Shown here: in pieces, positions 8,862 through 28,243 of the stretch
How positions within the stretch are numbered: position 1 is the stretch's first letter
How the letters are laid out: every line of letters starts with the position of its first letter
Assembly: GCF_025960875.1 (NCBI RefSeq)
Contig: NZ_JAODLR010000018.1
Coordinates: 1-64,000 of the forward strand
Source of the DNA: Crystallibacter permensis
GTDB lineage: Bacteria; Actinomycetota; Actinomycetes; Actinomycetales; Micrococcaceae
Direction of reading: 5' to 3'
DNA: 64,000 bases
Notes under the pieces: generated by a model
Told to the model about the DNA's origin: nothing
What the model saw: only the letters and a program-made list of their open reading frames with translations
Databases searched by the model: none
Position numbers and translations under genes: made by a program

Positions 8862-8920
8862 GCGCGCTCCTTGAAGTAGCGGGAGGGGAATCAGGGAATG
8901 GAGGCTGCGAAGGGTGAGAA

Positions 8921-8950
8921 GGTTGCCCGGGCAGTGGAGCCCGGGCAACC
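8921..8950 (-). terminator. Strong intergenic hairpin inside the catabolic operon
   Basis: A perfect 12-bp stem, GGTTGCCCGGGC with GCCCGGGCAACC and a 6-base loop, fills the 99-bp gap between the acyl-CoA dehydrogenase and aldehyde dehydrogenase genes. It lacks a U-tract on the minus strand, so it may stabilise the upstream mRNA or partly terminate rather than end the operon. Confidence 0.5.
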
Positions 8951-8960
8951 AGAGCGGAGG

Positions 8961-10121
8961 TTACCGGAAGGCCGGGAGGCCGGTGATCTTCTGGCCCAGG
9001 ATGAGGGTGTGGACCTCGTCCGTGCCTTCGTAGGTGCGCACCGACTCGAGGTTGTTGGCGTGGCGCAGCGGCGAGTAGTCCAGGGTGATGCCGTTGCCGC
9101 CGAGGATGGAGCGGCATTCGCGGGCGATCTCGATGGCCTCGCGGCAGTTGTTCAGCTTGCCCACTGAGATCTGGTGCGGCTGCAGCTGCCCGGCGTCCTT
9201 GAGCCGGCCTAGGTGCAGGGCGAGCAGGAAGCCCTTGTTGATCTCCAGTGCCATGTTGACCAGTTTTTCCTGGGTGAGCTGGTAGCCGGCCAGCGGCTTG
9301 TCGAACTGCAGGCGTTCCTTGGAGTAGTCCACAGCGGCTTGCCAGGCATCGCGGGCCGCGCCCATGGCGCCCCAGATGATGCCGTAGCGGGCCTCGTTCA
9401 GGCATTCGAACGGGCCGCGCAGCCCCTTCGCGTCCGGCAGGACCGCGTCGGCGGGGAGCCGGACGTCGGTCAGTTCGATGTCGCACTGGATGGAGGCGCG
9501 CATGGAGAGCTTGGGCTCGATCGGGGTGGCCTTGAACCCGGCGGTTTCGGTGGGGACCACAAAGCCGCGCACGCCCTCGTCGGTCTGGGCCCAGATGATG
9601 GCGACCTTGGCCACGGAGGCGAGTCCGATCCAGCGCTTGGAGCCGTTGAGGATCCAGTCTTCGCCGTCGCGGCGGGCGAAGGTCTTCATGCTGGAGGGGT
9701 CCGAGCCGGCGGTGGGTTCGGTGAGGCCAAAGCAACCGATCGCTTCACCGGCGGCCATCTGCGGCAGCCACTCCTGCTTCTGCGCTTCGGAGCCGTGCTT
9801 GTAGATGGCGCTCATGGCCAGCGAACCCTGAACGGAGACGAACGTCCGCAGGCCGGAGTCGCCGGCTTCGAGTTCGGCGCCGGCGATGCCGTATTCCACC
9901 GCGGAGCGCCCGGCGCAGCCGTAGCCCTTCAGGTGCATGCCGAGCAGGCCGAGCTTGGCCATCTCCGGCACGATTTCCAGCGGGAAGACGGCCTTCTCGT
10001 ACCAGCCGGCGATGTTGGGCTTGATCGCCGAGTCCACGAAGGAGCGGACGTTCTTCTGCAGCAGCCGCTCCTCCTCGGTCAGCAGGGAGTCGAGGGCAAT
10101 CAGGTCATGATCCTGGGACAT
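8961..10121 (-). CDS. Glutaryl-CoA dehydrogenase-like acyl-CoA dehydrogenase
   Basis: A 386-residue flavoprotein of the acyl-CoA dehydrogenase family. The glutaryl-CoA dehydrogenase subgroup is suggested by its end, TYEGTDEVHTLILGQKITGLPAFR, where the Glu of YEGT is the catalytic base, and by CFGLTEPTAGSDPSSMKT and RSILGGNGITLDYSPLRHANNLESV. Such enzymes oxidise and decarboxylate glutaryl-CoA to crotonyl-CoA and CO2. The flanking aminotransferase, aldehyde dehydrogenase, CoA-transferase and hydroxyacyl-CoA dehydrogenase fit this exactly. A related dicarboxylyl-CoA substrate cannot be excluded. It starts 46 bp after the aminotransferase gene. Confidence 0.88.
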   Translation of the reverse strand: MSQDHDLIALDSLLTEEERLLQKNVRSFVDSAIKPNIAGWYEKAVFPLEIVPEMAKLGLLGMHLKGYGCAGRSAVEYGIAGAELEAGDSGLRTFVSVQGSLAMSAIYKHGSEAQKQEWLPQMAAGEAIGCFGLTEPTAGSDPSSMKTFARRDGEDWILNGSKRWIGLASVAKVAIIWAQTDEGVRGFVVPTETAGFKATPIEPKLSMRASIQCDIELTDVRLPADAVLPDAKGLRGPFECLNEARYGIIWGAMGAARDAWQAAVDYSKERLQFDKPLAGYQLTQEKLVNMALEINKGFLLALHLGRLKDAGQLQPHQISVGKLNNCREAIEIARECRSILGGNGITLDYSPLRHANNLESVRTYEGTDEVHTLILGQKITGLPAFR

Positions 10122-10167: not shown

Positions 10168-11598
10168 TTAGGCGAGTGCCGGGGCGGCGGCTTCCGTGGT
10201 GGTTGCGTCGCGGCCGGCAGCGACGTCGACGATGGCCTGGCGCAGAACCGCCAGTCCGTCGCGGAACAGCTCGTCGCCGATGACCAGGGGCGGCAGCAGC
10301 CGGATGACGTTGCCGTGGGTGCCGCAGGTCAGGGTCAGCACGCCCTGGGCGTGGCAGCGGGCGGAGATCTCCTTGGCCAGGTCGGCCCGCGGCTCCAGCG
10401 TGCCGCGGTCGGCGAACTCGAGGGCCAGCATGGCGCCGCGGCCACGGAACTCGGCGACCACGTCGGTCTCCGCGACCAGCGGTTCGAGCACCTCGCGGGC
10501 CGTGGCTTCGATGGAACGGGCGTTGGCCAGCAGTGTGCCGTCCTCGAACGCCTCGAATACGGCCAGCGCCGCTTCGCAGGCCAGCGGGTTGCCGGCGTAG
10601 GTGCCGCCGAGCCCGCCGGCGTGGACCGCGTTCATCAGGTCAGCGCGGCCAGTGACCGCGCTGAGGGGGACGCCGTCGGCCAGGGCCTTGGCGCTGAGCG
10701 TCATGTCGCCGGCGATGCCCTCGTGCTCGCTGGCGAAGAGCGTGCCGGTGCGGCCCATGCCGGCCTGGATCTCGTCGATCACCAGCACAATGCCGTGCTT
10801 CGTGGCGATCTCGCGCAGACCTTTCAGGAAGCCGGGGGCGGGGACAATGAAGCCGCCCTCGCCTTGGATGGGCTCGATGACCATGGCTGCGAAGCTCTCC
10901 GGGCCGTGCTCGGCCAGCGTTGCTTCGACGGAGGCGAGTGCCGCGGCGGCGACGTCCGCGCCCGAGGCGGGAACGCCGTCGTTGTTGGTTGTTGCGGTTG
11001 TAGCGGTGGCGGGGCGGAGTGGATTGGCCGAGGCTGCGCGGACCACCTCCGTGGGGAACGGGCCGAAGTTGAGCCGGTACGGGTTCTCCTTGGCGGTCAT
11101 CGCCATGGTCATCAGCGAGCGGCCGTGGTAGGCCTCGTCGAAGACCAGAACCTTGCTGCGGCCGGTGGCGGAGCGGGCGATCTTGACTGCGTTCTCTACG
11201 GCCTCGGCGCCGGTGGAGAAGAGTGCGGTGCGCTTCTCGAAGTCGCCAGGCGTGTGCTCGTTGAGCCACTTGGCCACCTGCGTGAAGGACTCGTACTCGG
11301 TGACCATGAAGCAGGTGTGGGTGAAGCGCTCCAACTGCGCGGCAACGCGCTCGCGGACCCGCGGGTTGCTGGCGCCGATGCTGGTCACCGCGATGCCCGA
11401 GGCGAAATCGATCAGCCGGTTGCCGTCCACGTCCTGCAGGATGCCGCCGTCGGCGCGGTCGATGAAGACCGGCAGGGCGATGCCGAAGCCGTCGGTCACG
11501 TGGGCCTGGCGTTCGGCATGCAGGGCCTGCGAACGGGGGCCGGGAATGGCCGTGGCCAGGTGGCGGGACTGGGGGAGCGGAGTGAGGCTGGAAGTCAT
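10168..11598 (-). CDS. Class III omega-aminotransferase (GabT-like)
   Basis: A 476-residue PLP enzyme converting an omega-amino acid to its semialdehyde, with 2-oxoglutarate as the usual acceptor. Motifs: FASGIAVTSIGASNPRV near the N-terminus, the EAVENAVKIAR helix, FDEAYHGRSLM, VIDEIQAGMGRTGTLFASE with the PLP-contacting Asp, and the Schiff-base Lys in LSAKALADGVPLSAVTGR. It is the first gene of the minus-strand catabolic run and is divergent from the PucR regulator gene. 4-aminobutyrate and 5-aminovalerate are the usual substrates of this family; the glutaryl-CoA dehydrogenase downstream favours 5-aminovalerate. A short Ala/Thr-rich insertion around residues 195-215 is specific to this copy. 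Confidence 0.87.
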   Translation of the reverse strand: MTSSLTPLPQSRHLATAIPGPRSQALHAERQAHVTDGFGIALPVFIDRADGGILQDVDGNRLIDFASGIAVTSIGASNPRVRERVAAQLERFTHTCFMVTEYESFTQVAKWLNEHTPGDFEKRTALFSTGAEAVENAVKIARSATGRSKVLVFDEAYHGRSLMTMAMTAKENPYRLNFGPFPTEVVRAASANPLRPATATTATTNNDGVPASGADVAAAALASVEATLAEHGPESFAAMVIEPIQGEGGFIVPAPGFLKGLREIATKHGIVLVIDEIQAGMGRTGTLFASEHEGIAGDMTLSAKALADGVPLSAVTGRADLMNAVHAGGLGGTYAGNPLACEAALAVFEAFEDGTLLANARSIEATAREVLEPLVAETDVVAEFRGRGAMLALEFADRGTLEPRADLAKEISARCHAQGVLTLTCGTHGNVIRLLPPLVIGDELFRDGLAVLRQAIVDVAAGRDATTTEAAAPALA

Positions 11599-13363: not shown

Positions 13364-14548
13364 TTAGTTCTCCGCGAGCCAGGCCCGGACGGAGTCGTCG
13401 TGTTCGCCCAGCTGGGGCGGCGCGGCGGTGCGCGGCGGCAGCGGGGGAGTCCAGGTGGCTGGGTGGCGGACCTGGCGGCCCACCGGAGTGCCGTCCGGCG
13501 TGTGCACTTCGATGGTCGGATTCAGGCCCAGGGACTCGGCGAACTGCAGCCCGTCGTCGATCCCGGCCACGTGGCCGGCCGGGACGCCGGCACTGTTGAG
13601 CTTGTCCTGCCAGATCTGCGCTCCGGCGGTGGCGAGGGCTGCCTCCAGGACGGTGATCAGTTCCTCGCGGTGGGCCACGCGGGCGCTGTTGGTGGCGAAC
13701 CTTTCGTCGTCGGCGATTCCGGGGGAACCGATCACGGCGGCGAGCTTCCGGAACTGGCCGTCGTTGCCGCACGCCACCGCCAGCGGCCCGTCCTCGCACT
13801 GGAGCAGCTGGTAGGGAACGATGGACGGGTGCCCGTTGCCCATCCGGCCGGGGACCTTGCCCGCTCCGAGGTACGCCTGGGCCTGGTTGGCCAGCGCGCC
13901 CTGTAGGCTGGAGAGCAGATTCAGCTCCAAATGCGCCCCGCGCCCGGTGGCAGCCCTGGCATTCAGCGCCGCCAGCACGCCGATGGTCGTGTCCTTCGCC
14001 GTGAGCACGTCCACCAGGGCAACGCCGGCCTTCATCGGTCCGCCGTCCGCCTCGCCGGTGATGCTCATGAGCCCGCCGAGCGCCTGGACAATGAAGTCGT
14101 AGCCGAGCAGGTCCGCGCCGCCGCTGCTGCCGAACCCGGTGATGGAGGCGTAGATCAGCCCGGGGTTTTCGCGGCTCAGTTCTTCATAGCCGAGCCCGAG
14201 TTTATCCATCCCGCCGGGCTTGAAGTTCTCCACCAGGACGTCGGCCCGCGCGGCGAGCTTCCGCGCCAGCACGCGGTCGCCGTCGTCGGTCAGGTCGAGG
14301 CAGACGGACTCCTTGTTCCGGTTCACGCTCTCGAAGTATGTGGCTCCCGTAGCCGAGTACGGCGGCCCCCATTTACGGGTGTCGTCCCCGGCACCGGGCC
14401 GTTCCACCTTGATCACCCTGGCGCCGAGGTCCGCCAGGGTCATGGTGGCCAGCGGGCCGGCGAGGACGCGGGAGAAGTCCGCGACGACGATCCCGTCGAG
14501 GGGCAGCTTGCCGGATGTAGTGGGGTCGGGGGAGCCGGTGGTATTCAT
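13364..14548 (-). CDS. Family III (CaiB/BaiF) CoA-transferase
   Basis: About 394 residues from the ATG at 14548, behind AAGGA. The family hallmarks are GIVVADFSRVLAGPLATMTLADLGARVIKVERPG at the N-terminus, NRNKESVCLDL, NFKPGGMDKLGLGYEEL, the PG-IYASITGFG segment, and the catalytic Asp in GYDFIVQALGGLMSITG. These enzymes move CoA between carboxylic acids. Within this block, activation of glutarate from succinyl-CoA is the most economical role, like mammalian succinyl-CoA:glutarate CoA-transferase, which belongs to the same family. It lies 56 bp downstream of the permease gene on the same strand. Confidence 0.85.
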   Translation of the reverse strand: MNTTGSPDPTTSGKLPLDGIVVADFSRVLAGPLATMTLADLGARVIKVERPGAGDDTRKWGPPYSATGATYFESVNRNKESVCLDLTDDGDRVLARKLAARADVLVENFKPGGMDKLGLGYEELSRENPGLIYASITGFGSSGGADLLGYDFIVQALGGLMSITGEADGGPMKAGVALVDVLTAKDTTIGVLAALNARAATGRGAHLELNLLSSLQGALANQAQAYLGAGKVPGRMGNGHPSIVPYQLLQCEDGPLAVACGNDGQFRKLAAVIGSPGIADDERFATNSARVAHREELITVLEAALATAGAQIWQDKLNSAGVPAGHVAGIDDGLQFAESLGLNPTIEVHTPDGTPVGRQVRHPATWTPPLPPRTAAPPQLGEHDDSVRAWLAEN

Positions 14549-14604
14549 GAAGTTCCTTCTGCCGGGGCGGCGGTAGGTCTGGTATCGGGAGCCAACCGTG
14601 CAGG

Positions 14605-17375: not shown

Positions 17376-18890
17376 ATGTCTGCCGAAATGACGAAGCCCG
17401 CTGGAGAGACCGGCATCGATGAAGATGCCGCACACCTCGCCAGCCTCGGTTACTCGTACGATCAGCAATTCAAGCGCGAAATGACGTTCTGGGGGAATGT
17501 GTCCCTAGGCTTCACCTATCTGTCCCCCGTTGTTGGTATCTATTCGCTGTTCGCAGCCTCGCTCGGAATTGCCGGGCCGCCTATGTTTTGGTCGCTGATC
17601 ATTGTCGGCGTCGGCCAGCTGCTGGTCGCCACGGTCTTTGGGGAAGTTGTTTCCAACTACCCGGTGGCCGGCGGGGTGTACCCGTGGTCCCGCCGACTGT
17701 GGGGCCGCAAGTGGGGCTGGATGAACGGTTGGGTGTACCTGTGCGCACTGCTGGCAACCATTGCCAGCGTTGCCTACGGCTCCGGCCCCTTCCTCAGCTC
17801 CCTGCTGGGGATGGAGAGCAGTGTCAACTCCGTGATCATGGCTGCCTTGGCCGTCATCCTGCTGGCGACCTTGCTGAATCTTGGCGGCACCAAAGTCCTG
17901 AACAAGGTCGCCATGCTCGGCCTGCTCGCCGAGCTGGGCGGCGCTTTGGTGGTCGGTATCTGGCTGATGGTCGCGGCCCGCGAACACGATCTGGGCGTAC
18001 TGTTCCAGAGCTTCGGGGCAGGCGAAGGCAGCAACTACTTCATCGCCTTTGCGGCGGCGGGACTGATCGGCATCTACCAGTACTACGGGTTCGAGGCCTG
18101 CGGCGACGTGGCTGAAGAGGTCCCGAACCCCGGACGCACCATCCCGAAGGCTATGCGGATGACCATCTACATTGGTGGCTTCGCGGCGATGTTCGTTTGC
18201 CTGTCCCTGATCCTTGCCGTTCCCGATTTCGGCGCAGTGATCAGCGGCGCCGACGCCGATCCGGTCGGCAACGTGCTGCTCTCGGCTTTCGGACCTGTCG
18301 GCTTCAAGGTAGTGCTCGCCGTCGTGCTCATCTCTTTTGTTTCCTGCGTTCTGAGCCTGCAGGCGGCGTCCTCCCGCCTGGCCTACTCCATGGCCCGCGA
18401 CGGCATTCTTCCCGCCAGCAAACTGCTCAGCAAGTTCAGCGAAACCCGCCACGTTCCGCCGTATGCCCTGCTGCTGGCCGGCCTGGTTCCGGCACTGATC
18501 GTGATCGGATCCAAGGTTTCCGAGGATGCCCTGATCACCATCATTTCCTTCGCCGCCATGGGTATGTACATGGGCTTCCAGATGGTGGTGCTCGCCGCGC
18601 TGCGTGCACGGCTCAAGGGCTGGAAGCCGCGCGGTGCCTTCCAGCTGGGCGCCTGGGGCACCCCCATCTACGTAGCGGCACTGGCCTGGGGCGTGCTCGG
18701 CATGGTCAACATGGCCTGGCCTCGGACCCCGGAAGCCGGCTGGTTCTCCAACTACATCGTGTTGATCTCGGCGGTCGGCGTCGTCGTTATTGGTTTGGTC
18801 TACATGGCATGGAAGAAGCCCTACCTCAAGGGTGACGCACCCCACGGGGACGCGGTTCCTTCCGCGCCGGCACATTCCCTCAAGCCCTAA
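17376..18890 (+). CDS. APC-family amino acid/amine permease
   Basis: About 504 residues from the ATG at 17376, directly behind AGAAGGAGA. It has roughly twelve membrane segments and the features of the APC subgroup that includes GABA, choline and polyamine permeases: an N-terminal LGYSYDQQFKREMTFWGNVSLGFTYLSPVVGIYSLF, GGVYPWSRRLWGRKWGWMNGWVY, and a GFEACGDVAEEVPNPGRTIPKAM loop. It is the first gene of an operon with P450, ferredoxin, reductase, glutamine-synthetase-like ligase and gamma-glutamyl hydrolases, so it probably imports the nitrogenous substrate of that pathway. Confidence 0.88.
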   Translation: MSAEMTKPAGETGIDEDAAHLASLGYSYDQQFKREMTFWGNVSLGFTYLSPVVGIYSLFAASLGIAGPPMFWSLIIVGVGQLLVATVFGEVVSNYPVAGGVYPWSRRLWGRKWGWMNGWVYLCALLATIASVAYGSGPFLSSLLGMESSVNSVIMAALAVILLATLLNLGGTKVLNKVAMLGLLAELGGALVVGIWLMVAAREHDLGVLFQSFGAGEGSNYFIAFAAAGLIGIYQYYGFEACGDVAEEVPNPGRTIPKAMRMTIYIGGFAAMFVCLSLILAVPDFGAVISGADADPVGNVLLSAFGPVGFKVVLAVVLISFVSCVLSLQAASSRLAYSMARDGILPASKLLSKFSETRHVPPYALLLAGLVPALIVIGSKVSEDALITIISFAAMGMYMGFQMVVLAALRARLKGWKPRGAFQLGAWGTPIYVAALAWGVLGMVNMAWPRTPEAGWFSNYIVLISAVGVVVIGLVYMAWKKPYLKGDAPHGDAVPSAPAHSLKP

Positions 18891-18945
18891 CGCGCCTGCC
18901 GCGCCCTTCAGTTCCATCAGCAAAGAAAGAAACAGGTTCCACATC

Positions 18946-20145
18946 ATGAGTACGCCTACCGTCCAAGTTCCCTACCTGAATATCTCGGATCCATCGTTCG
19001 CTATGCAGTCCGAAGAGCTGCGGGCAGCCCGGGAGCAGAGCTGGTACGCACGGACCAATTACGGCATCGCGGTGCTGCGGTATGACGAGGTCAGCAAGCT
19101 GCTTAAGAGTCCCAAGCTCTCGCAGGGCAGCGCCAAGTGGCCGGCGCACAACGGCGTCCACGGCGGGCTTTTCTACGACTGGTGGACCAAGAACCTGCTG
19201 GTACTGGAGGGCGAGGACCACCACCGGATCCGGCGCCTGCTCAACCCGGCCTTCTCGCCGAGGCTGATCAAGGACCTGGTGCCGCGCTTCCAGGCGCTGG
19301 CAAACGAGTTGATCGACGCCTTCATCGACAAGGGTGAATGCGAGTTCATCCGGGACTTCGCCGAACCCTATGCCACGCGGGTGCTGACCATCCTGCTGGG
19401 CATTCCGGAAAGCGAATGGCCGACGATCGCCCGGCTGGCCTCCACGGTAGGACTGGCACTAGGCGTCACCTTCAAGCAGGACTTGGACAAGGTGGACGCC
19501 GCCGTCGCCGAGCTCTACGAATACGCCGAGGGACTGATCAAGGACCGCCAGGCCAATCCGGGCGAAGACTTCGTCAGCCGCCTGGTACTGGCCAACCGGG
19601 ACGGAGACCGGCTCAGCGACGAGGAGCTGCGCAACGCGCTGGTGCTTCTGATCTTTGGCGGCATGGACACCACGCGCAACCAGCTTGGACTGGCCATGCA
19701 GTCCTTCATGCACAACCCGGAGCAGTGGGAGCTGCTCGCTGAACGCCCGGATCTGGGCGGCAAGGCCGTCGAGGAAGTCATGCGGATCAACCCTACCGTC
19801 ACGTGGGTGACCCGGGAAGCAGTCGAGGACTTCACCTACCAGGACCTCTTCGTCGAAAAAGGCACCACGGTCCACCTGTTCACGCAGTCATCGGGCACCG
19901 ACCCGAAGGCTTTCCCCAACCCGGAAATGGACCTGCTCGGCGAGCATGCTCCGCACTACGGGTTCGGCGGCGGAGTCCACCACTGCCTGGGGCACTTCGT
20001 GGCCCGTGCGGATATGAGCGAGGCGTTGCCGCTGCTGGCCAGCCGCATCGCCAACCCGCACTTGACGGGCGGGGACGAGTGGCTGCCGGACTCGGGCAAC
20101 ACCGGTCCGATCCGGCTGCCCATCGGTTTCACCAAGCGGTCCTAG
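18946..20145 (+). CDS. Cytochrome P450 (class I bacterial monooxygenase)
   Basis: A 399-residue soluble P450 from the ATG at 18946; the 55-bp gap upstream carries AAAGAAAGAAACAGG. Diagnostic regions are the I-helix LIFGGMDTTRNQ with the oxygen-activating Thr pair, the ExxR motif in EEVMRINPTVTW, and the heme loop FGGGVHHCLGHFVARAD with the thiolate Cys. It is followed by its own ferredoxin and reductase, so electrons should flow NAD(P)H to reductase to ferredoxin to P450. The gene order recalls the P450-ferredoxin-reductase operons (mor/pip) used by mycobacteria to open secondary cyclic amines, but I cannot assign the CYP family from sequence alone. Confidence 0.92.
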   Translation: MSTPTVQVPYLNISDPSFAMQSEELRAAREQSWYARTNYGIAVLRYDEVSKLLKSPKLSQGSAKWPAHNGVHGGLFYDWWTKNLLVLEGEDHHRIRRLLNPAFSPRLIKDLVPRFQALANELIDAFIDKGECEFIRDFAEPYATRVLTILLGIPESEWPTIARLASTVGLALGVTFKQDLDKVDAAVAELYEYAEGLIKDRQANPGEDFVSRLVLANRDGDRLSDEELRNALVLLIFGGMDTTRNQLGLAMQSFMHNPEQWELLAERPDLGGKAVEEVMRINPTVTWVTREAVEDFTYQDLFVEKGTTVHLFTQSSGTDPKAFPNPEMDLLGEHAPHYGFGGGVHHCLGHFVARADMSEALPLLASRIANPHLTGGDEWLPDSGNTGPIRLPIGFTKRS

Positions 20146-20185
20146 CGGCCCAGAACACAGCAATACTTTAGGAAGGACAACACTG

Positions 20186-20377
20186 ATGAAGACCATCGAC
20201 GTAGACCGCACCCTCTGCGACAACCACGGCCAGTGCGCTATCGCCGCGCCGGACGTTTTCCGGATGAATGCCGACGGCGAGCTCGAGTACGAGGCAACTT
20301 TCGACGACGCGCTGCTGGACGTGGTGGAGGAAGCCATCGACGTCTGCCCGGTCCAGGCTATCTTCCTCAAGGACTGA
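20186..20377 (+). CDS. 3Fe-4S-type ferredoxin, P450 redox partner
   Basis: A 63-residue acidic ferredoxin with Cys11-x2-His14-x2-Cys17 and a distal Cys54-Pro. The missing second cysteine (His14 in its place) is the mark of the single-cluster 3Fe-4S or hybrid ferredoxins that serve actinobacterial P450s. AGGAAGGA precedes the ATG. It lies between the P450 gene and the reductase gene and is separated from the latter by one base, so the two are probably translated together. Confidence 0.92.
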   Translation: MKTIDVDRTLCDNHGQCAIAAPDVFRMNADGELEYEATFDDALLDVVEEAIDVCPVQAIFLKD

Positions 20378-20378
20378 C

Positions 20379-21632
20379 ATGAGCCGCAGAATAGTCATCG
20401 CCGGAGCCTCGATGGGAGGACTGCGCGCCGCCGAACAGTTGCGCGCGGCCGGCTGGGAGGAAGAGATCGTCGTCGTTGGCGATGAGATCCACCCGCCCTA
20501 TAACCGACCGCCGCTGTCCAAGGACCTGCTCGCCGCACCCGGATCCCAAGAGGAGGCGCTTGCCGCGGTACAGCTTCGGCAACGCCGCACGGCCACCGAT
20601 ATTCAATGGCGGCTCGGATCCGCGGTTGCTGCGGCAGATCTGGCGGCCCGCACGCTGACGTTGGACAGCGGCGAAGAACTTGCCTACGACGGACTGGTGA
20701 TTGCCACCGGGCTCCGACCCAGGCGAGTACCCGTTCCGGGACCCACCGCCGGACGCCACGTGATCCGCCGTCTCGAGGACACTCTGGCCTTGCACAGCGA
20801 GCTGACGTCCAGGTCCAAGGTGGCGGTCATCGGCGCCGGTTTCATCGGATGCGAGGCGGCCGCGACAGCTGCCGCCCTCGGCTGTAAGGTCACGCTCATC
20901 GAGGGGGCCGGCGGTCCGATGGAGCGCCCGCTCGGTCACGAACTGAGCGCGGGCATCCGGACCTTCCTGCAGACGCACGGCATTGACTGTGTGGCCGGCA
21001 AACGGGTCAACGAGTTCCTGGACGTGCCCGGAACCTACACCGAAGGCGCCGGGCGCTGTGCAGGTGTCCGGCTCGAGGACGGTACGGAAGTAGCCGCTGA
21101 CGTCGTTATTGAGGCCGTCGGCTCGCTGCCGAACGTCGAGTGGCTGGCGGGAAACGGGCTGGACCTCAGCGACGGAGTGCTCTGCAACGAACACCTCCAG
21201 GTGCTCGGCGCGGAACATGTGGTTGCGGTGGGCGACGTAGCCCGGTATCCGGACCGTCGCGCCGGCGGACCTGCCCGCCGCGTCGAGCATTGGGCCACTC
21301 CGGCCGATACGGCTAAAATCGCCGCGCCGGCGCTCGTGGCGGGCCTCAAGGGCGACGTTGTTCCCGAGCCGGCGGCACCGTTGCCGTCTTTCTGGACCGA
21401 CATCTTCAAGACCCGAATCCAAGGAGTGGGTAGCCCCGCTCTGGCCGACACCATCGAGGTTCTCGAAGGCGACCCTTCCCGCCCTTGGGAGGGAACCGCC
21501 CTGGCTTACTACCGCGACGGCCGGCTGATCGGCGCGGTGACCGCCGCCCTGCTGGCTGACCGCCAACTGCACTACCGCAAGCTCGTGAACGAATCCGGCA
21601 TCCCCGCCGGCGCCGACCTGGCTGCCGTCTGA
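20379..21632 (+). CDS. Ferredoxin reductase (FAD/NAD-dependent)
   Basis: About 417 residues from the ATG at 20379, one base after the ferredoxin stop. Two Rossmann motifs are visible: VIAGASMGGLRAAEQLRAAGW at the N-terminus for FAD, and VAVIGAGFIGCEAAATAAALG (about residue 148) for NAD(P)H. PPYNRPPLSKDLL, LVIATGLRPRRVPVPG and VVAVGDVARYPD are typical of the putidaredoxin-reductase family. It should reduce the preceding ferredoxin for the P450. The length is normal and the C-terminal reductase domain is complete. Confidence 0.92.
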   Translation: MSRRIVIAGASMGGLRAAEQLRAAGWEEEIVVVGDEIHPPYNRPPLSKDLLAAPGSQEEALAAVQLRQRRTATDIQWRLGSAVAAADLAARTLTLDSGEELAYDGLVIATGLRPRRVPVPGPTAGRHVIRRLEDTLALHSELTSRSKVAVIGAGFIGCEAAATAAALGCKVTLIEGAGGPMERPLGHELSAGIRTFLQTHGIDCVAGKRVNEFLDVPGTYTEGAGRCAGVRLEDGTEVAADVVIEAVGSLPNVEWLAGNGLDLSDGVLCNEHLQVLGAEHVVAVGDVARYPDRRAGGPARRVEHWATPADTAKIAAPALVAGLKGDVVPEPAAPLPSFWTDIFKTRIQGVGSPALADTIEVLEGDPSRPWEGTALAYYRDGRLIGAVTAALLADRQLHYRKLVNESGIPAGADLAAV

Positions 21633-21666
21633 CCGGCATCGCACACTGACGAGAAAGAAGTCCATC

Positions 21667-23100
21667 ATGACACTCACCCCCGTACGGCCCGAGCTGGCCG
21701 CCATCGACCTGCAGCAATCCCTCAAGGACCGCGACGCCTTCGCGCGGCACCAGGAGCGCAACCTGCGTCCCGAGACCGTGCGCGACCTCGGTCGCAAGAT
21801 CGAGGAAGCAGGCGTCGAGTACGTGTACTACGCGCTGCCGACCATCGGCTCCCGCATGGTGGCCAAAATGGTCCCGGCCAACCACTTCAAGCGGAATCTG
21901 GAAAAGGGCATCTGCTTCCACCGGACGGCGCTGTCCGACCTGCAGAATGACCGCCACGGCAACCTGATTGGCGGCGGCATCGAGGCCCGCGAGTTCTGGG
22001 CGCTGCCGGAGCCGGATACATTTGTGGTGCTGCCCTGGGATACCTCGGTGGCGCGGATCTTCTGCACCGCCTACGAGCCCCCGCACCTGCCGGAGGTCGG
22101 CGGGCGCCTGCTGCCGATCGACACCCGCTCGCTGCTGATCCGCTCGCATGAAGCCTTCACCGCCCGCACCGGCTTCGAGGTCCGCTCCGGAACCGAACCG
22201 GAGATGACCTGGGAAGGCCCCGGCCTCGAGGTGGTCAAGAAGCCCGGCACCAGCCCCGCCTACCAGGTGGAGAACCTGGAGCGCATGCGTCCGATCTACA
22301 AGAAGCTGGTCACCTACGCCAAGGCCATGGGCCTGGACATGATCGAGGGCGACTACGAAGACGATGGTCAGCTTGAGCTCAACTGGATGTACGACAGGGT
22401 GGAAAACACCGCAGACCGGCTGGTCACCTACCGCCAGATCTGCAAGCAGGTGGCCCGCGAATTCGGCGTCACCGCCAGCTTCATGCCCAAGCCCTACAAC
22501 GGCCAGATGGGCAATGGCTGCCACCACAACCTGAGCCTCTGGGACGGCGACACCAACGTCATCGAGGACGCCGGAAGGGTGGAACTGCACGTTTCCGAGA
22601 CGGCCAGGCACGCCATCGGCGGTCTGCTCACGCATGCCCCCGGTTCGATGGCGGTCATGGCCAGCACCGTCAACTCCTACAAACGGTTCTGGGACGCCGG
22701 CCAGTTCGCCCCCAGCACGGCAAACTGGGGCTTGGACAGCCGCGGCTGCCTGGTGCGCATCTCCTCGAACGGCCGGATGGAATACCGGGTACCGGACGCC
22801 GCCGTGAACCCCTACCTGTCGCACACGCTGCTCATTGCCGCGATGGAGGACGGACTGAACCGCCGGCTGGATCCCGGTATGGCCGACGACGGCGATGCGG
22901 ACGTTCCAGCCCTCGGCGGCCAGTTGCCGCTCACCTTGGGCGACGCGATCGACGCCTTCGTCTCGGATACCTACCTCACCTCGGCGCTGCCGGCGGACCT
23001 GGTATCGATCTACACCCAGCTGAAGCAGGAGGAATGGGCCCGTTATTGCGGCGCCATCACCGAATGGGACCGCGAGATGTACTGGGAGACCATTCCGTGA
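21667..23100 (+). CDS. Glutamine-synthetase-like gamma-glutamyl-amine ligase
   Basis: A 477-residue member of the glutamine synthetase fold. Catalytic features: EGDYEDDGQLELNW (metal-binding Glu), the GQMGNGCHHNLSLWDG loop with the nucleotide/metal His, an NSYKRFW segment, and RISSNGRMEYRVPDAAVNPYL. The absence of housekeeping features such as the GlnA adenylylation loop, and its place between a P450 system and two gamma-glutamyl hydrolases, point to ATP-dependent gamma-glutamylation of an amine, as in PuuA, IpuC or the aniline enzyme AtdA1. Its 3' end overlaps the next gene, so translation is coupled. The amine is unknown. Confidence 0.87.
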   Translation: MTLTPVRPELAAIDLQQSLKDRDAFARHQERNLRPETVRDLGRKIEEAGVEYVYYALPTIGSRMVAKMVPANHFKRNLEKGICFHRTALSDLQNDRHGNLIGGGIEAREFWALPEPDTFVVLPWDTSVARIFCTAYEPPHLPEVGGRLLPIDTRSLLIRSHEAFTARTGFEVRSGTEPEMTWEGPGLEVVKKPGTSPAYQVENLERMRPIYKKLVTYAKAMGLDMIEGDYEDDGQLELNWMYDRVENTADRLVTYRQICKQVAREFGVTASFMPKPYNGQMGNGCHHNLSLWDGDTNVIEDAGRVELHVSETARHAIGGLLTHAPGSMAVMASTVNSYKRFWDAGQFAPSTANWGLDSRGCLVRISSNGRMEYRVPDAAVNPYLSHTLLIAAMEDGLNRRLDPGMADDGDADVPALGGQLPLTLGDAIDAFVSDTYLTSALPADLVSIYTQLKQEEWARYCGAITEWDREMYWETIP

Positions 23101-23825
23101 GCCGCGTCGAGACGCTTTCAGCTGGCATCCTGCGTTTGGCCTGTATCGACTCCGAGGCGCCGCCGCTGTTCAACCTGGCCGACGACGACGGCAACCGCCG
23201 CGGGTACGAGCCGGAGGCGGCAGAGCTGGTCGCCTCCGTGCTGGGCCTACGCATCGAGTGGACGTACCTGGACTGGGACGACATGCTCCCCGCCGTGCGC
23301 GACCACCGCGTGGATGCAGTTTGGTGCGGCCAGGGCATCATCCCGGAACGCCAGGCCGTGGTGAACTTTACCGACCCGTACGCCGTGTTCGACGAGACCG
23401 TGCTGGTGCGCAAGGGCGATCCGGCCCGCTCGCCGGAGGACTTGGTTGGCTACAAGGTCGCGGCGATCGAGGGCAGCGCCAACATGAAACTGGCTGTCAC
23501 CTTCGAGGGAGCCGAACCGGTCGCCTTCAACGGTGCGGACGTGTTCGGGGACATGCTGGCGGCCCTGCGCAACGGTGAGGTGGATGCCATGGTGGACGAC
23601 GACGTCGTGACCGTGCCGCTGGGTGAAGACCCCGCGTACGATGTCGCCTTCACGCACCCCACGGGCAACCGGTGGGGGATCGGGGTGGCCAAGGACAACC
23701 CGTTCCTGCTGGCCGAGCTCAACGCGGCACTGGCAACGGTGGTGGCGGACGGGCGGCTGGAGCGGATCTGGACCAAGTGGATGCCGCACCTGCCGTACCC
23801 GCTGGCGGCGGAGGTAGCCGTATGA
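23097..23825 (+). CDS. Cytosolic solute-binding-fold protein (SBP family 3-like, no signal peptide)
   Basis: About 242 residues from the GTG at 23097, which overlaps the ligase stop. The fold matches polar amino acid ABC-binding proteins: GYEPEAAELVASVLGLRIEW, the ligand-carboxylate Arg in PERQAVVNFTDPYAVFDETVLVRKGD (Arg85), the hinge IEGSANMKL, and NGEVDAMVDDD. Unlike normal binding proteins it begins straight at the first strand, with no signal peptide or lipobox, and no ABC permease or ATPase gene is nearby. It ends in an ATGA overlap with the first hydrolase gene. It may bind the gamma-glutamyl intermediate or the substrate in the cytoplasm as a chaperone or sensor; that role is inference. 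Confidence 0.72.
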   Translation: MSRVETLSAGILRLACIDSEAPPLFNLADDDGNRRGYEPEAAELVASVLGLRIEWTYLDWDDMLPAVRDHRVDAVWCGQGIIPERQAVVNFTDPYAVFDETVLVRKGDPARSPEDLVGYKVAAIEGSANMKLAVTFEGAEPVAFNGADVFGDMLAALRNGEVDAMVDDDVVTVPLGEDPAYDVAFTHPTGNRWGIGVAKDNPFLLAELNAALATVVADGRLERIWTKWMPHLPYPLAAEVAV

Positions 23826-24556
23826 GCCGCCCCATGATCGGCGTTCCGGGCATGTGGTCCAACTCCGTCCACGGCTTGCGCTTCGATGGCGTTGCCGTGG
23901 CAGCTAAGGTGCTGCGCTGCATCGTCGCTGCCGGCGGGGAGCCGGTCGTCATGTTCCCGGGGAGCGGTGACAGCGCCGGCGAGCAGGTTGCCCGTTTCGA
24001 CGGCGTGCTGCTTCCCGGCGGTGCCGATGTGGCGCCCGAGCTCTACGGAGCGGAACCGGACGAACATTATTGGCCCACCGACTACTCTGGCCAGGACGCG
24101 TATGAAGCGGCCATCATGGCCGCCTGCATCGAAGCGGGAGTACCGCTGCTGGCGATCTGCCGCGGCCTGCAGTTGTTCAACGTATCCCGCGGCGGCACGC
24201 TGCTTCAGCATCTGGAACCGGGAACCGTGCAGCATAAGGATGCGATACATCCGGTTGCTGTTTCGGAAGGGTCATTGCTGGCAACCGTGGTCGGCAGCGG
24301 GCAGGTGGATGTCTCCTCGTACCACCACCAGGCCGTGGGTGCGCTCGGTGAAGGCCTGGAAGTGACGGCGACCGCAGCGGACGGCGTGGTGGAAGCGCTC
24401 GAAGTGCCGGGAGCTTCCATGCTCGCTGTCCAGTGGCACCCGGAAGACACCGCAGAGACCAATCCCGCCGACCACGCGCTGTTCGTCTGGGTTGTCGACG
24501 CGGCCAGGCAGCGCCGTGACGCGACTGCCGCCGCGGAAATGGCAGGTGCCCGGTGA
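23822..24556 (+). CDS. Class C26 gamma-glutamyl hydrolase, copy 1
   Basis: A 244-residue glutamine-amidotransferase-like hydrolase of the PuuD group. The nucleophile elbow is LLAICRGLQLFN (Cys113), and the catalytic His and Glu are in VQWHPED (His206, Glu208); PGGADVAPELYG is the family's oxyanion region. It should remove glutamate from a gamma-glutamyl amine or acid. It is coupled by a 4-bp overlap to both neighbours. The pairing of a ligase with such hydrolases follows the known logic of gamma-glutamyl putrescine, isopropylamine and aniline pathways. Confidence 0.87.
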   Translation: MSRPMIGVPGMWSNSVHGLRFDGVAVAAKVLRCIVAAGGEPVVMFPGSGDSAGEQVARFDGVLLPGGADVAPELYGAEPDEHYWPTDYSGQDAYEAAIMAACIEAGVPLLAICRGLQLFNVSRGGTLLQHLEPGTVQHKDAIHPVAVSEGSLLATVVGSGQVDVSSYHHQAVGALGEGLEVTATAADGVVEALEVPGASMLAVQWHPEDTAETNPADHALFVWVVDAARQRRDATAAAEMAGAR

Positions 24557-25380
24557 GTGGGCTGCGGGTCAATCCCGCGAACGTGGTTCCCGCCGCCTTC
24601 GAACACCTGCCAGCAGACGCGCCGCGCGTCGCCGTCGTTGTTTCATTGACGTTCCCGGGGATGACCCAGCAGACGCTGGAACTGATGGAGCGTTTTACTC
24701 GTGTCGCGTTTGAAACACTGCTGGAAGCGGGAGCCAGCGCCGAGCTGGTGGACAGTGCGGCCGAACACCTGACTCCCGAAGCGGAGCTGGCCAAGTACGA
24801 CGGAGTCCTCTTCTTGGGAGGCGGCGATGTGGACGCGTCGCTCTATGGCCATACCGGGCCGGTACCCAATTCCTACGGGGTGGATCTACGGGCGGATGAG
24901 TACTGCTTGGAACTGATCCGCGGTGTGCTGGAGCAGGACCAGCCGTTGCTCGCCATCTGCCGGGGATCACAACTGCTCAACGTCGCCTGCGGCGGCACGC
25001 TGATCCCTGATCTGGACCCATGGCATCTGCACCGCGGGGGACCGGGACAGCCGATGTTCCTGGACGAGAAGGTGAACCTGGCTCCGGGCTCGAAGGTGGC
25101 GGCCATCCTCGGCCGTCCAACGGTCACCGTGCGCTCGGGGCATCATCAAGCGGTGGGAACTGTGGCAGCTGAGCTGCAGGTTGCCGCTCTGGCGCAGGAC
25201 GGTGTGGTTGAAGGTACGGAGCATCCGGGCAAGACCTGGGTGGTCGGCGTGCAATGGCATCCGGAGGACTCGGACGGGGACGCGAATGATCGATCCCTGT
25301 TGTTCGAAGAGTTCGTGCGCCAGAGCAGGCTGAACCCGGCGGCGGCGACCGGCAGGCAGCAGGAGCCGGCCAACGCCTGA
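24553..25380 (+). CDS. Class C26 gamma-glutamyl hydrolase, copy 2
   Basis: A 275-residue second member of the same family, starting at a GTG that overlaps the stop of copy 1. The catalytic triad is intact (Cys136 in LLAICRGSQLLN, His236 and Glu238 in VQWHPED). It is longer at the N-terminus by about 25 residues and diverges clearly from copy 1 (for example GGGDVDASLYG and DPWHLHRGG), so this is an old paralogue rather than a recent duplication. Two hydrolases could act at different pathway steps, or one could act as a glutamine amidotransferase-like partner of the ligase. It ends at a strong hairpin. Confidence 0.85.
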   Translation: MSGLRVNPANVVPAAFEHLPADAPRVAVVVSLTFPGMTQQTLELMERFTRVAFETLLEAGASAELVDSAAEHLTPEAELAKYDGVLFLGGGDVDASLYGHTGPVPNSYGVDLRADEYCLELIRGVLEQDQPLLAICRGSQLLNVACGGTLIPDLDPWHLHRGGPGQPMFLDEKVNLAPGSKVAAILGRPTVTVRSGHHQAVGTVAAELQVAALAQDGVVEGTEHPGKTWVVGVQWHPEDSDGDANDRSLLFEEFVRQSRLNPAAATGRQQEPANA

Positions 25381-25381
25381 T

Positions 25382-25421
25382 CAGTTGATCTGCGCGGTCA
25401 TCCCGCCGCACAGATCAACTG
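25382..25421. terminator. Bidirectional terminator between hydrolase and Cache genes
   Basis: CAGTTGATCTG and CAGATCAACTG form a perfect 11-bp outer stem around a GC-rich inner hairpin (GCGG/CCGC). It begins one base after the last hydrolase stop and overlaps the final codons of the minus-strand Cache gene, so it separates the two convergent transcripts. Confidence 0.7.
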
Positions 25422-26114
25422 CAGGTTCAGGTTGGGGACGTTCAACGGTATGAAGCAGAAACCTTCCGGTGCTTCCTTGATCCGTTCGCCGACAATAAAA
25501 CGTCCCGAGTTGCCCAGAATCACGCGGTGCTGGCCGTTCAAGATGGCGGCGTCCCCGGGAATCCGGCGGACAATCGGGATGAACTTGTTTTCGATGTCAC
25601 GGATCCGGATGTCGCAGCCGGTTACACCGATGAAGGTTCCGTGGACATAGGTCGGTACCGTGCAGGTCATGATGTATTCGTCGAAGCCGAGGTAGTCCAC
25701 ATAGGGGCCCGCAATGGATTGCTGGCCGGTTTTGGCGGCGATGGAAAACCATGGGAGTTGCTCATAGTCGTAAAACCGCTCACCCTCGGGAGCTAAATCA
25801 AAATCCAGCTTTTCAATATTTCCCGAATCGGTTCTGAACCACCATTCCAATACTCCCTCAGCGTCTTTGATTGCAGAGATCGAGAAGATTACTCCCGCGC
25901 CGACAACAATGTCATGGGAATTGAGGAACGCGGTGGATATTTCACGTAAACCGGTAATGTCTTTAGGTGATATTTTTATGCCTGCCGGAATTTTTGCTTC
26001 GAGCTGTTTTTCCACCGTGTGGGCAGTGTTGTACAGGTCCTGGTACAGCTCGTTAAGCCATGCCTCGATGGCCGTCGCACTGCTGATGGCGCGGGGTGAG
26101 GCGGGCGCAATCAT
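25398..26114 (-). CDS. Cytosolic Cache-domain sensor protein
   Basis: A 238-residue protein recognisable as a single PDC/Cache-type ligand-binding domain: a helical start (ATAIEAWLNELYQDLYNTAHTVEKQL), then VVGAGVIFSI, WWFRTDSGN, the YDYEQLPWFSIAAKTGQQSIAGPYVDYLGFDEYIMTCTVPTY core, and FIGVTGCDIRI. There is no signal peptide, transmembrane segment or output domain, unlike classical Cache receptors. It overlaps the GntR regulator gene by ATGA, so the two are made together. It may sense a small carboxylate or amine and act with the regulator. Base composition is more AT-rich around 25.8-26.0 kb than in its neighbours. Confidence 0.75.
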   Translation of the reverse strand: MIAPASPRAISSATAIEAWLNELYQDLYNTAHTVEKQLEAKIPAGIKISPKDITGLREISTAFLNSHDIVVGAGVIFSISAIKDAEGVLEWWFRTDSGNIEKLDFDLAPEGERFYDYEQLPWFSIAAKTGQQSIAGPYVDYLGFDEYIMTCTVPTYVHGTFIGVTGCDIRIRDIENKFIPIVRRIPGDAAILNGQHRVILGNSGRFIVGERIKEAPEGFCFIPLNVPNLNLQLICAAG

Positions 26115-26872
26115 GAGATCTCCTCTTCATCGCCTACATGGGCAAGCGTGAGCTTGGTGTCAATGAGGTGGTAAGTGTTCCGCCGGATATGTTCGACAAC
26201 CAAACGCTGGGCGTTGTCTGGTTCGTCCGCCCTGATCGCATCCACGATCCGCACATGCTCACGGGCAGCCGTAGCGGGGTCGAACACACCGGCGATCGGG
26301 CTCCACAAAAGCTGGCCGACCTCGGATTGCAGGCGGATCTCAAGGCTTGTGAGCCGCGGAGACTGGGCGACCACCGCCAGCTCTATGTGGAAGCGGCTGT
26401 CTGATCTCGCCTGTGTTTCGGGGGAATCGGCGCTGGCCAGTGCCTTGGCCAGCTGTTCCAGCCGGTCCAGATCCTTCGGATGGGCGCGGTCACATGCCAG
26501 CCGGGCAGCTGCTGCGGCCACGGCAGTTTGCTCGTCGCCGAGATCCCGCAGGTCCGCAATGGAAGTGTCCCGAAGGTACTTCCGCAGCTGTTGCTCCTGG
26601 GCCTGCGGGGACTTGACCACAAACGTTCCGCCATTGCGGCCGCGCCGTGTTTCAACCACCCCGCGTTCCCTTAGTTCAGCGAGGGCTTCACGAAGGGTGG
26701 CTCCAGCTACGCCGAACATGTCGGAAAGCTCGGATTCCACGGGCAGGCGCTCGCCGACACGGAGCATGCCCAGGGCAACCGCGGTGGATATCCTCTGGAC
26801 TATCGCCTCGGACCGTTCCTTTTCGGGCAGGGAGCGATAAATCTGGGACTGCAACGCCGGGGGTGAGGCCAC
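26111..26872 (-). CDS. FadR-type GntR transcriptional regulator
   Basis: A 253-residue regulator from a GTG at 26872 preceded by GAAGGGAG. The N-terminal winged helix (about residues 20-85, GERLPVESELSDMFGVAGATLREALAELRERGVVETRRGRNGGTF) is followed by an FCD ligand domain with the metal-binding pattern (FHIELAVVAQ, EHVRIVDAI, VEHI). FCD regulators usually bind organic acids. The coupled Cache gene and the convergent P450/gamma-glutamyl operon suggest it controls that operon or a neighbouring lost pathway; no operator is evident to me. The 165-bp region upstream is unusually AT-rich. Confidence 0.85.
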   Translation of the reverse strand: MASPPALQSQIYRSLPEKERSEAIVQRISTAVALGMLRVGERLPVESELSDMFGVAGATLREALAELRERGVVETRRGRNGGTFVVKSPQAQEQQLRKYLRDTSIADLRDLGDEQTAVAAAAARLACDRAHPKDLDRLEQLAKALASADSPETQARSDSRFHIELAVVAQSPRLTSLEIRLQSEVGQLLWSPIAGVFDPATAAREHVRIVDAIRADEPDNAQRLVVEHIRRNTYHLIDTKLTLAHVGDEEEIS

Positions 26873-27283: not shown

Positions 27284-28243
27284 TCAGGAGTCCAGTGCTG
27301 CTTCGAGCTTGTCGATGTTTCCGCTCATCCACTCCACGTAGGAGACATCCTCGGGAAGCGTTTCGGTGAAGTCGACGACCGGCACACCCGTCTCATTGGC
27401 CATGGACTTCAGGCTCTCTGACTGCGGACCTTCCACCTGGCTGTTGTAGGCCAGCAGGACGACGTTTCCTGAGGCCAGGAGGTCCTGCGTTTCCTTGAGC
27501 TCGGCCGGGGGAGCGTCGTTCCCGGCTTCGATCGCGGCAATGAACCCCTCCGGCGTCTTGTCGACAAGCCCGATGTCAGTGAGGAGATGCTCGGCCAGCG
27601 GCGCGGTGGCGGCGATGGCACTGCCCTCATGCTCCTTGCGTAGATCGGCCATGCGACCTTCAAGGGCTCCGAGATCATCGGTGAACGCCGCCGCGTTGGA
27701 CTCGTATGTGGAAGCATTCTCGGGGTCCAACTCGGCTAGCTGCGCGGCAATCTCATCGGCGATCCTGGAAACGGCCGGGAGTGAATACCAGACGTGCTCG
27801 TCGGCCTGTTCGGCAGCGGGCTCATCTTCGTGCGCCTGCGCCTCATCCTCATGGGCGGCATCGAGTCCCGATACTTCGAAAGCGTCGACCACCGCTGCGA
27901 CATCCGCGTCTCACGCGAGCTGTTCCATGAACGGGTCGAAGCCACCCCCGTTGCGGATGACCAGATCAGCCTCGGACAAAGCAAGACGATCCCTGGCTGT
28001 GCCCTCGTAGGAGTGCGGGTCCTGGCTAATGCTGTCGATGATCGCCGTGGCCGACACCTTCCCGCCGCCGACGGATTCCGCGATGTCGCTGTACATGTTC
28101 GTGGATGTGACAATGCTGATCTTGTCACTGGATGCTGCGGTCGCCTGGGTGCCCGCTTCGGATTGGGATCCGGCGCAAGACGTCAGGGCGACGGCCAGGA
28201 CTGCTGTTCCGGCTAGTGCCGATCGGCGGAGTTTGGAGTGCAT
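27284..28243 (-). pseudogene. ZnuA-like zinc ABC-transporter lipoprotein with an internal stop
   Basis: Two segments in the same frame, 28243-27911 (110 codons) and 27910-27284, are separated by a single TGA at 27913-27911. Together they encode a normal-length (about 313 residue) metal-binding protein: signal with lipobox (ALTSCAG), VTSTNMYSDIAESVGG, DPHSYEGTARD, NGGGFDPFM before the stop, then a His/Glu-rich loop, HVWYSLPAV, HEGSAIAATAPLAEHLL and a NSQVEGPQSESL-type end. Reading through the stop preserves the family alignment, so this is a recent nonsense mutation or a sequencing error. No znuB or znuC lies downstream. It shares the strand and probably the transcript of the zinc-starvation genes upstream. 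Confidence 0.8.

Follow-up and report, generated by a model that had tools for sequence, protein, structure and literature searches.

A P450 operon of Crystallibacter permensis that most likely represents a pip/mor-type cyclic-amine locus built around gamma-glutamyl chemistry

Why would a cytochrome P450 and its redox partners share an operon with a glutamine synthetase (GS)-like ligase, two gamma-glutamyl hydrolases and a protein with the fold of a periplasmic solute-binding protein (SBP)? This combination occurs in a 64,000-nucleotide stretch of Crystallibacter permensis (contig NZ_JAODLR010000018.1, positions 1 to 64,000; hereafter the window), part of a 4.95-Mb genome. We find that the operon is most likely a cyclic-amine catabolic locus of the pip/mor type that centers on gamma-glutamyl chemistry. 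It comprises eight intact, co-directional genes on the plus strand at 17376–25380, with the content and order given by an initial annotation made from the sequence alone, and the Pfam families agree with all eight labels at family level:

17376–18890, plus strand: APC-superfamily amino acid/amine permease (PF13520, AA_permease_2, 147 bits)
18946–20145, plus strand: class I cytochrome P450 related to PipA/MorA-type P450s (PF00067, 95 bits)
20186–20377, plus strand: small ferredoxin with a CxxHxxC...CP pattern (PF13459/PF13370, Fer4_15/Fer4_13)
20379–21632, plus strand: FAD-dependent ferredoxin reductase (PF07992, Pyr_redox_2, 191 bits)
21667–23100, plus strand: GS-like ligase, predicted gamma-glutamyl-amine synthetase (PF00120, Gln-synt_C, 241.7 bits)
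23097–23825, plus strand: cytosolic amino-acid-binding-fold protein, SBP_bac_3 without signal peptide (PF00497, 100.6 bits)
23822–24556, plus strand: C26 gamma-glutamyl hydrolase a, PuuD-like (PF07722, Peptidase_C26, 181.7 bits)
24553–25380, plus strand: C26 gamma-glutamyl hydrolase b (PF07722, Peptidase_C26, 146.7 bits)

The genes are separated by 55, 40, 1 and 34 bp, followed by 4-bp overlaps between the ligase and SBP genes, the SBP and hydrolase a genes, and the two hydrolase genes, which bears out the close packing already reported for the second half. The cysteine pattern of the ferredoxin presumably denotes a 3Fe-4S type. Among the matches listed, none of the eight proteins reaches an NCBIfam equivalog cut-off, and promoter-like and terminator-like sites are not clearly above shuffled sequence (3 vs 1.8 ± 1.3 and 10 vs 7.1 ± 2.3, respectively).

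The gene set is well conserved in the family. The P450 is detected at E ≤ 1e-40 in 27 of 245 family genomes, and 26 of these copies are 60–100% identical to that of the window; the P450 of genome G225 (33% identical) was set aside as non-orthologous. The SBP-fold protein, at the same threshold, is present in 26 of 240 family genomes, and these are the same 26. All eight genes, followed by a Cache/GntR pair described below, occur in order in 16 of the 20 family loci that were fetched, while two others are cut by contig ends and two have no adjacent permease. Gene order in relatives had been named beforehand as a point on which the initial annotation could fail, and it is conserved. Specifically, the most distant of the 16 ordered loci (L054) has operon proteins 54–82% identical to those of the window, with 34% for the Cache and 42% for the GntR protein. 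In two loci (L061 and L062), a flavodoxin and an XplB-like reductase replace the ferredoxin and reductase, no permease is adjacent, and an aldehyde dehydrogenase gene lies between the hydrolases.

A P450 alignment headed by a Gordonia sequence was also used to scan GTDB genomes; the counts refer to the best 80 loci listed, 59 of which have at least 9 kb on both sides (full-flank loci). Mycolicibacterium, Nocardioides, Streptomyces, Actinomadura, Rhodococcus and Brevibacterium are represented among them, and the module recurs across Actinomycetota. At the thresholds used, a GS-like ligase is found within ~10 kb of the P450 in 57 of the 59 full-flank loci (the exceptions are L097 and L141) and in 74 of the best 80, and with the usual numbers of GS genes chance would place one this close in a few percent of loci. 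The best 80 loci also contain the SBP (58), a C26 or related amidotransferase (57), ferredoxin (58), reductase (49), GntR (55), Cache (53), permease (47) and aldehyde dehydrogenase (44), and the permease is the first gene or a divergent neighbor in many relatives. The collections include near-duplicate genomes (e.g. the same Arthrobacter species in two collections), and as such these counts are not independent. A chance grouping of genes was rejected on this conservation, and a recent local assembly of the operon is unsupported because the gene order is widely shared. The P450 itself is rare in a sample of the phylum (3 of 396 genomes at E ≤ 1e-90, including the window's own), and a phage collection contains no ligase at E 1e-60.

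The arrangement varies outside the family. Many alphaproteobacterial loci differ in having two GS-like genes and no SBP, and in halophilic gammaproteobacteria and a Pseudomonas the ligase and SBP are on a different strand from the P450. In three proteobacterial loci (L033, L119 and L135), the P450 and reductase are fused in one open frame (970, 959 and 964 codons, respectively) with two GS-like genes nearby. Separately, a Streptomyces sp. NBC_00111 plasmid (L036, 11893–14648) carries a 55%-identical P450, a ferredoxin and a reductase within an ectABC-like ectoine cluster, with no GS-like match in the 12-kb flanks; the substrate of this P450 may be an N-gamma-acyl diaminobutyrate, which resembles a gamma-glutamyl amide.

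Is the ligase a glutamine synthetase? We aligned 102 sequences (the window's and 101 homologues, near-duplicates included), with positions given in what we take to be Salmonella GS numbering. The equivalent of the ammonia-site residue Asp50 is lost in all 102 (His in 79, Trp in 19, Thr in 2, Gly and Phe in 1 each), and so is that of the flap residue Glu327 (Phe in 80, Trp in 20, Tyr in 2); the window ligase has His85 and Phe347 at these sites. All 102 sequences retain E212, E220, H269, R321 and E357, and one retains Ser53; the E129 and E131 columns, misaligned by gaps, were left out of the counts. Apart from the ligase gene, the genome has just two with a Gln-synt_C domain, and each matches that domain more strongly (450.7 and 411 vs 241.7 bits). 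Because both residues are lost throughout and stronger GS matches exist elsewhere in the genome, we consider it very unlikely that the ligase is a glutamine synthetase, in keeping with the initial annotation, and an ordinary GS was rejected on the residues and on family cut-offs. Its best-scoring NCBIfam family is TIGR03105 (type III GS/GMAS; 282.6 bits, cut-off 469.6), and it stays below the GS I and GS III cut-offs, with 213.7 against 429.15 for the glutamine synthetase (GlnA) model TIGR00653. The nearest solved relatives are glutamate–methylamine ligase (9qur) and the enzyme 7cql. An aromatic residue at the flap Glu is shared with the GlnA4 (gamma-glutamylethanolamide synthetase) model, which has Phe, and with PauA7, which has Trp, the ammonium-site Asp50 being replaced as well (PMC6529630, in excerpt). 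The operon differs from GMAS and GlnA4 systems in its P450 partner, in the prevailing His at the Asp50 site and in that no N-methylglutamate or ethanolamine genes are seen among its genes.

The P450 carries the heme motif FGGGVHHCLG and the I-helix motif GGMDTT; its AlphaFold2 model has a predicted local distance difference test score (pLDDT) of 90.5, and its best PDB match is AurH (35%). The closest published comparison comes from Gulosibacter (PMC9477822, in excerpt), whose ON4 P450s PipA/BioI are 52–53% identical to PipA and MorA. Each comes with an electron-transfer partner and a reductase, and with a glutamine synthetase gene that has a neighboring locus number and is interpreted there as serving nitrogen assimilation; the same excerpt names G. 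chungangensis KCTC 13959 as a carrier of relatives. We find that this strain (L144) encodes a P450 65% identical to that of the window, followed by the ligase, the SBP, two C26 hydrolases and an aldehyde dehydrogenase. The initial annotation knew of no described system combining these parts, and this was overstated, since a P450 with redox partners and a GS-like gene already makes up the core of the known pip/mor systems, and Gulosibacter P450s with a neighboring GS gene are published (PMC9477822, in excerpt). Within the open-license PMC literature searched, what appears new is the full set read as one gamma-glutamyl pathway, together with a cytosolic SBP: neither was found there, which is no proof of absence, and the pairing of such a P450 with a GS was found only in the excerpt of the Gulosibacter paper (PMC9477822).

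The SBP-fold protein had been described as lacking a signal peptide, and this holds among its relatives. In a crude hydropathy test, none of 80 homologues exceeds 1.6 within the first 45 residues (highest 1.56; window 0.96), which makes a signal peptide unlikely. The N-termini of 81 homologues begin with LRLACID-like or equivalent residues, and reading further upstream mostly enters another frame of the 3' end of the ligase gene. There is no ATP-binding cassette (ABC) permease or ATPase among the eight operon genes, and an ordinary ABC uptake protein was rejected on the N-terminus and the missing ABC partner in the operon. The AlphaFold2 model (pLDDT 94.2) is nearest to structure 4zv1, and the closest solved relatives are amino-acid-binding proteins, including an ancestral arginine/glutamine-binding protein and cyclohexadienyl dehydratase ancestors. 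No variation is seen at R85 and D167/D168 among 41 sequences, and R85 and D168 line up with the Arg and Asp of solved AncQR-type amino-acid-binding proteins; we take the roles of these ligand residues from GlnBP/LAO. Because these residues are both invariant and aligned with such relatives, the protein has probably kept the ability to bind an alpha-amino acid, which it would do in the cytosol; a gamma-glutamyl amide is such a compound. A cytosolic amino-acid-binding SBP is apparently undescribed within the literature searched.

Among 63 loci with both genes, the SBP gene directly follows the P450 instead of the ligase in five (L097, L111, L112, L141 and L143). The more distant ligases (43–46% identity) come from seven genomes and lack an SBP homologue within 1.5 kb, whereas both ligases at 59% identity have one; one further match (42%) had no locus and was left out of this comparison. 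One SBP homologue (genome G155, contig C117, 18305–18991) contains an in-frame TAA, in an assembly listed at 7% contamination. In the hydrolases, the catalytic residues are retained: Cys113, His206 and Glu208 of hydrolase a in 72, 71 and 72 of 72 sequences, respectively, and Cys136, His236 and Glu238 of hydrolase b in 63 of 63.

Which amine is involved? A clue, which the initial annotation had not covered, lies just upstream of the operon on the opposite strand:

6512–7384, minus strand: 3-hydroxybutyryl-CoA dehydrogenase-like (NF004474, 282.7 bits, below the cut-off of 408)
7392–8948, minus strand: semialdehyde dehydrogenase-like (best NCBIfam match alpha-ketoglutaric semialdehyde dehydrogenase, 512 bits, below the cut-off of 770)
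8961–10121, minus strand: glutaryl-CoA dehydrogenase (PDB 3swo, glutaryl-CoA dehydrogenase, E 5e-163, 546 bits)
10168–11598, minus strand: 4-aminobutyrate/5-aminovalerate aminotransferase-like (PRK06058, 613 bits vs a cut-off of 639)
13364–14569, minus strand: CaiB-type CoA-transferase, possibly for glutarate (NCBIfam succinate–glutarate CoA-transferase, 351 bits, below the cut-off of 750)

Together these genes suggest a route that takes 5-aminovalerate via glutarate to crotonyl-CoA, and piperidine, a five-carbon ring amine, would be the simplest source of its substrate. For the glutaryl-CoA dehydrogenase, nine of the ten best PDB sequences bear that name and one is an acyl-CoA dehydrogenase, while no NCBIfam cut-off is reached (FadE 248.5 of 600; Desulfo-type glutaryl-CoA dehydrogenase 183.7 of 470). 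The PDB relatives of the CoA-transferase are mixed, with an unnamed CaiB/BaiF protein and a formyl-CoA transferase ranking above succinate–hydroxymethylglutarate CoA-transferase (9br6, E 2.5e-82). A 57% paralogue of the aminotransferase is encoded at another place in the genome, where the matched region contains one TGA. Counting the module as linked when at least two of four markers are present, we find it in 11 of 18 family loci, ten of them with all four markers, in 16 of the best 80 GTDB loci and in 13 of the 59 full-flank loci. Linked loci among the best 80 include those of mycobacteria, streptomycetes and Rhodococcus, which are in other arrangements.

Gene content, its conservation, the lost ammonia site, the retained catalytic residues and the linkage to the glutaryl-CoA module are seen directly in the sequences; from them we infer a substrate, an order of steps and a role for the binding protein, as follows. 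The permease would import the amine, most likely piperidine, and the ligase would use ATP and glutamate to form its gamma-glutamyl amide. The P450, fed by the reductase and ferredoxin, would then hydroxylate the carbon next to the nitrogen, and the resulting N-acyl hemiaminal would open to gamma-glutamyl-5-aminopentanal, which would be unable to re-cyclize to 1-piperideine. An aldehyde dehydrogenase would yield gamma-glutamyl-5-aminovalerate, from which a C26 hydrolase would release glutamate and 5-aminovalerate, and the neighboring aminotransferase, semialdehyde dehydrogenase, CoA-transferase and glutaryl-CoA dehydrogenase would convert the latter to crotonyl-CoA. The cytosolic binding protein may hold the gamma-glutamyl intermediates, as a carrier or as input to a sensor.

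We regard a gamma-glutamyl pathway of a cyclic amine, with the ligase and P450 steps in either order, as fairly likely; the ligase-first order taken alone claims about half of this confidence. The initial annotation had proposed that the amine is oxidized as its gamma-glutamyl conjugate. The pairing of P450 and ligase is conserved in nearly all full-flank loci, but oxidation of the free amine followed by glutamylation of the ring-opened amino-aldehyde fits the gene content equally well. In that opposite order, the P450 would oxidize the free ring to a hemiaminal or amino-aldehyde and the ligase would glutamylate the 5-aminopentanal (or 4-aminobutanal) that ring opening yields, so that it is trapped before it can re-cyclize, with hydrolysis after oxidation; both orders would meet at gamma-glutamyl-5-aminopentanal and continue through the aldehyde dehydrogenase and C26 hydrolase. 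We hold this to be a serious contender that falls somewhat short of even. It agrees with the primary amines (methylamine, ethanolamine) used by the studied relatives of the ligase, since the ring-opened product is itself a primary amine, and with reports that pipA is induced by growth on piperidine and that MorA with its redox pair oxidizes morpholine (PMC9477822, in excerpt). For the ligase-first order we count the joint open reading frame of ligase and reductase in Gordonia KTR9, the five loci in which the SBP gene directly follows the P450, and the persistence of the ligase beside ferredoxin/reductase, flavodoxin/XplB-like and fused reductase partners alike, which suits a P450 that requires a conjugate but is no proof. 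When offered morpholine, piperidine or pyrrolidine in free form, purified P450mor reportedly shows no binding spectra, which we count against the P450-first order. On balance, action of the P450 on the gamma-glutamyl conjugate rather than the free amine has a slight edge.

Several observations weigh against the conjugate pathway or its piperidine version. MorA with its redox pair is reported to oxidize free morpholine, for which prior conjugation is unnecessary (PMC9477822, in excerpt). The operon contains no dedicated gamma-glutamyl-aminoaldehyde dehydrogenase, although an aldehyde dehydrogenase is present in several relatives, and at the thresholds used 12 of the 59 full-flank loci have no recognizable redox partner and 13 no C26 homologue. 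Not all GS residues are kept in the ligases, as the H210 equivalent is Asp in all 102, R339 is Arg in 58 and Lys in 44, and R359 is Arg in 56 and Lys in 46. In addition, the polyamine ligase GlnA2 keeps D50 and E327 (PMC8998196, in excerpt), so that their loss is a sign rather than a rule. The module is not linked in seven of the 18 family loci, which show no marker at all (at L170 the contig extends on the downstream side alone, and no marker lies downstream in the others either), and among the 59 full-flank loci 46 carry at most one of its four markers. As such, the five-carbon assignment need not hold for all members, and loci without a linked module may serve other amines or keep those genes elsewhere. 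On the amine substrate, the excerpts of PMC12866759 and PMC10820124 contain nothing.

These module counts also speak for another ring amine or N-heterocycle (pyrrolidine, morpholine, azepane or a plant alkaloid), with the glutaryl-CoA genes serving a separate lysine/5-aminovalerate route, as does the hexamethyleneimine hydroxylation proposed for Gulosibacter relatives (PMC9477822, in excerpt). Linkage of the module in most family loci, and in other arrangements in mycobacteria, streptomycetes and Rhodococcus, points the other way, and we consider this reading unlikely. More improbable still is a diamine route modeled on the Escherichia coli Puu pathway (PuuA/B/C/D), in which the P450 would replace the amine oxidase PuuB and act on gamma-glutamyl-cadaverine or gamma-glutamyl-putrescine. 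The logic of glutamylating, oxidizing and hydrolyzing is shared, the permease, gamma-glutamyl ligase, PuuD-like hydrolases and, in relatives, aldehyde dehydrogenase match the Puu layout, and cadaverine also yields 5-aminovalerate. However, a P450 stands here in place of the flavin amine oxidase, the ligase and hydrolases are far under the equivalog cut-offs (198.5 vs 650 for GGputSyn; 95.4 and 74.9 vs 266 for PuuD), and the nearest studied P450s come from users of cyclic amines.

The closest known counterparts are the mycobacterial pip/mor systems (PipA, MorA), which likewise have a P450, an adjacent ferredoxin and reductase, a GS-like neighbor and a GntR-type regulator nearby; the P450s of those systems belong to CYP151 and their regulator is PipR. 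Published descriptions of these systems reportedly cover the P450 and its redox partners, the regulator and a portion of the GS-like gene. The cytosolic SBP, both C26 hydrolases, the Cache protein and the link to the glutaryl-CoA genes were not found in the pip/mor literature consulted. A Mycolicibacterium wolinskyi locus (L078) has all ten genes, with the permease and regulators arranged differently. In other systems, namely AtdA1/A2 for aniline and Ipu for isopropylamine, a gamma-glutamyl ligase likewise acts before or with oxidation, the aniline system using a dioxygenase instead of a P450.

A further connection is to the RDX (hexahydro-1,3,5-trinitro-1,3,5-triazine) genes. On plasmid pGKT2 of Gordonia KTR9 (L031, 10476–17487), GntR, Cache, a 60%-identical P450 and the ligase are followed by xplB and xplA, with the ligase and XplB in one 814-codon open frame. 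The P450 domain of XplA itself is just ~24% identical to the window P450. In six other loci, the P450 is flanked by a reductase resembling XplB and by a flavodoxin resembling the N-terminus of XplA, which suggests an origin of xplA/xplB in redox partners beside such P450s. The broadest version of the proposal is a tag-and-carry scheme for small amines, in which the gamma-glutamyl conjugate is the true substrate of the whole P450 family, a dedicated cytosolic SBP, encoded with the ligase or, in five loci, right behind the P450, carries or presents it to the P450 and hydrolases, and XplA/XplB were drawn from the family's redox partners; this strikes us as rather doubtful.

Also beyond the initial annotation is the regulator pair, convergent to the operon, which begins 17 bp past the last hydrolase gene and has a mutual 4-bp overlap:

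25398–26114, minus strand: stand-alone Cache-domain protein (PF22673, 47 bits)
26111–26872, minus strand: GntR/FCD transcriptional regulator (PF00392 and PF07729)

The window's Cache protein reaches a maximum 19-residue hydropathy of 1.44, i.e. it has no strongly hydrophobic segment, while 17 of 64 homologues show a stretch above the hydropathy threshold. A Cache domain without a transmembrane part beside a GntR protein is a second normally extracytoplasmic sensor fold in apparently cytosolic use. Farther along (27284–28243, minus strand), a ZnuA-like zinc-binding-protein gene is broken by a stop or frame break into pieces of 202 and 110 amino acids.

If the gamma-glutamyl reading of this locus is true, it would fill in the piperidine-type amine pathway of many environmental actinobacteria and explain why a GS-like gene stands beside these P450s. 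With two purified activities, one could then test directly whether the free amine or the glutamyl conjugate is the substrate. The reading would further bring in a cytosolic use of the periplasmic-binding-protein fold that is apparently undescribed, and it would place the RDX genes xplA and xplB in a context.

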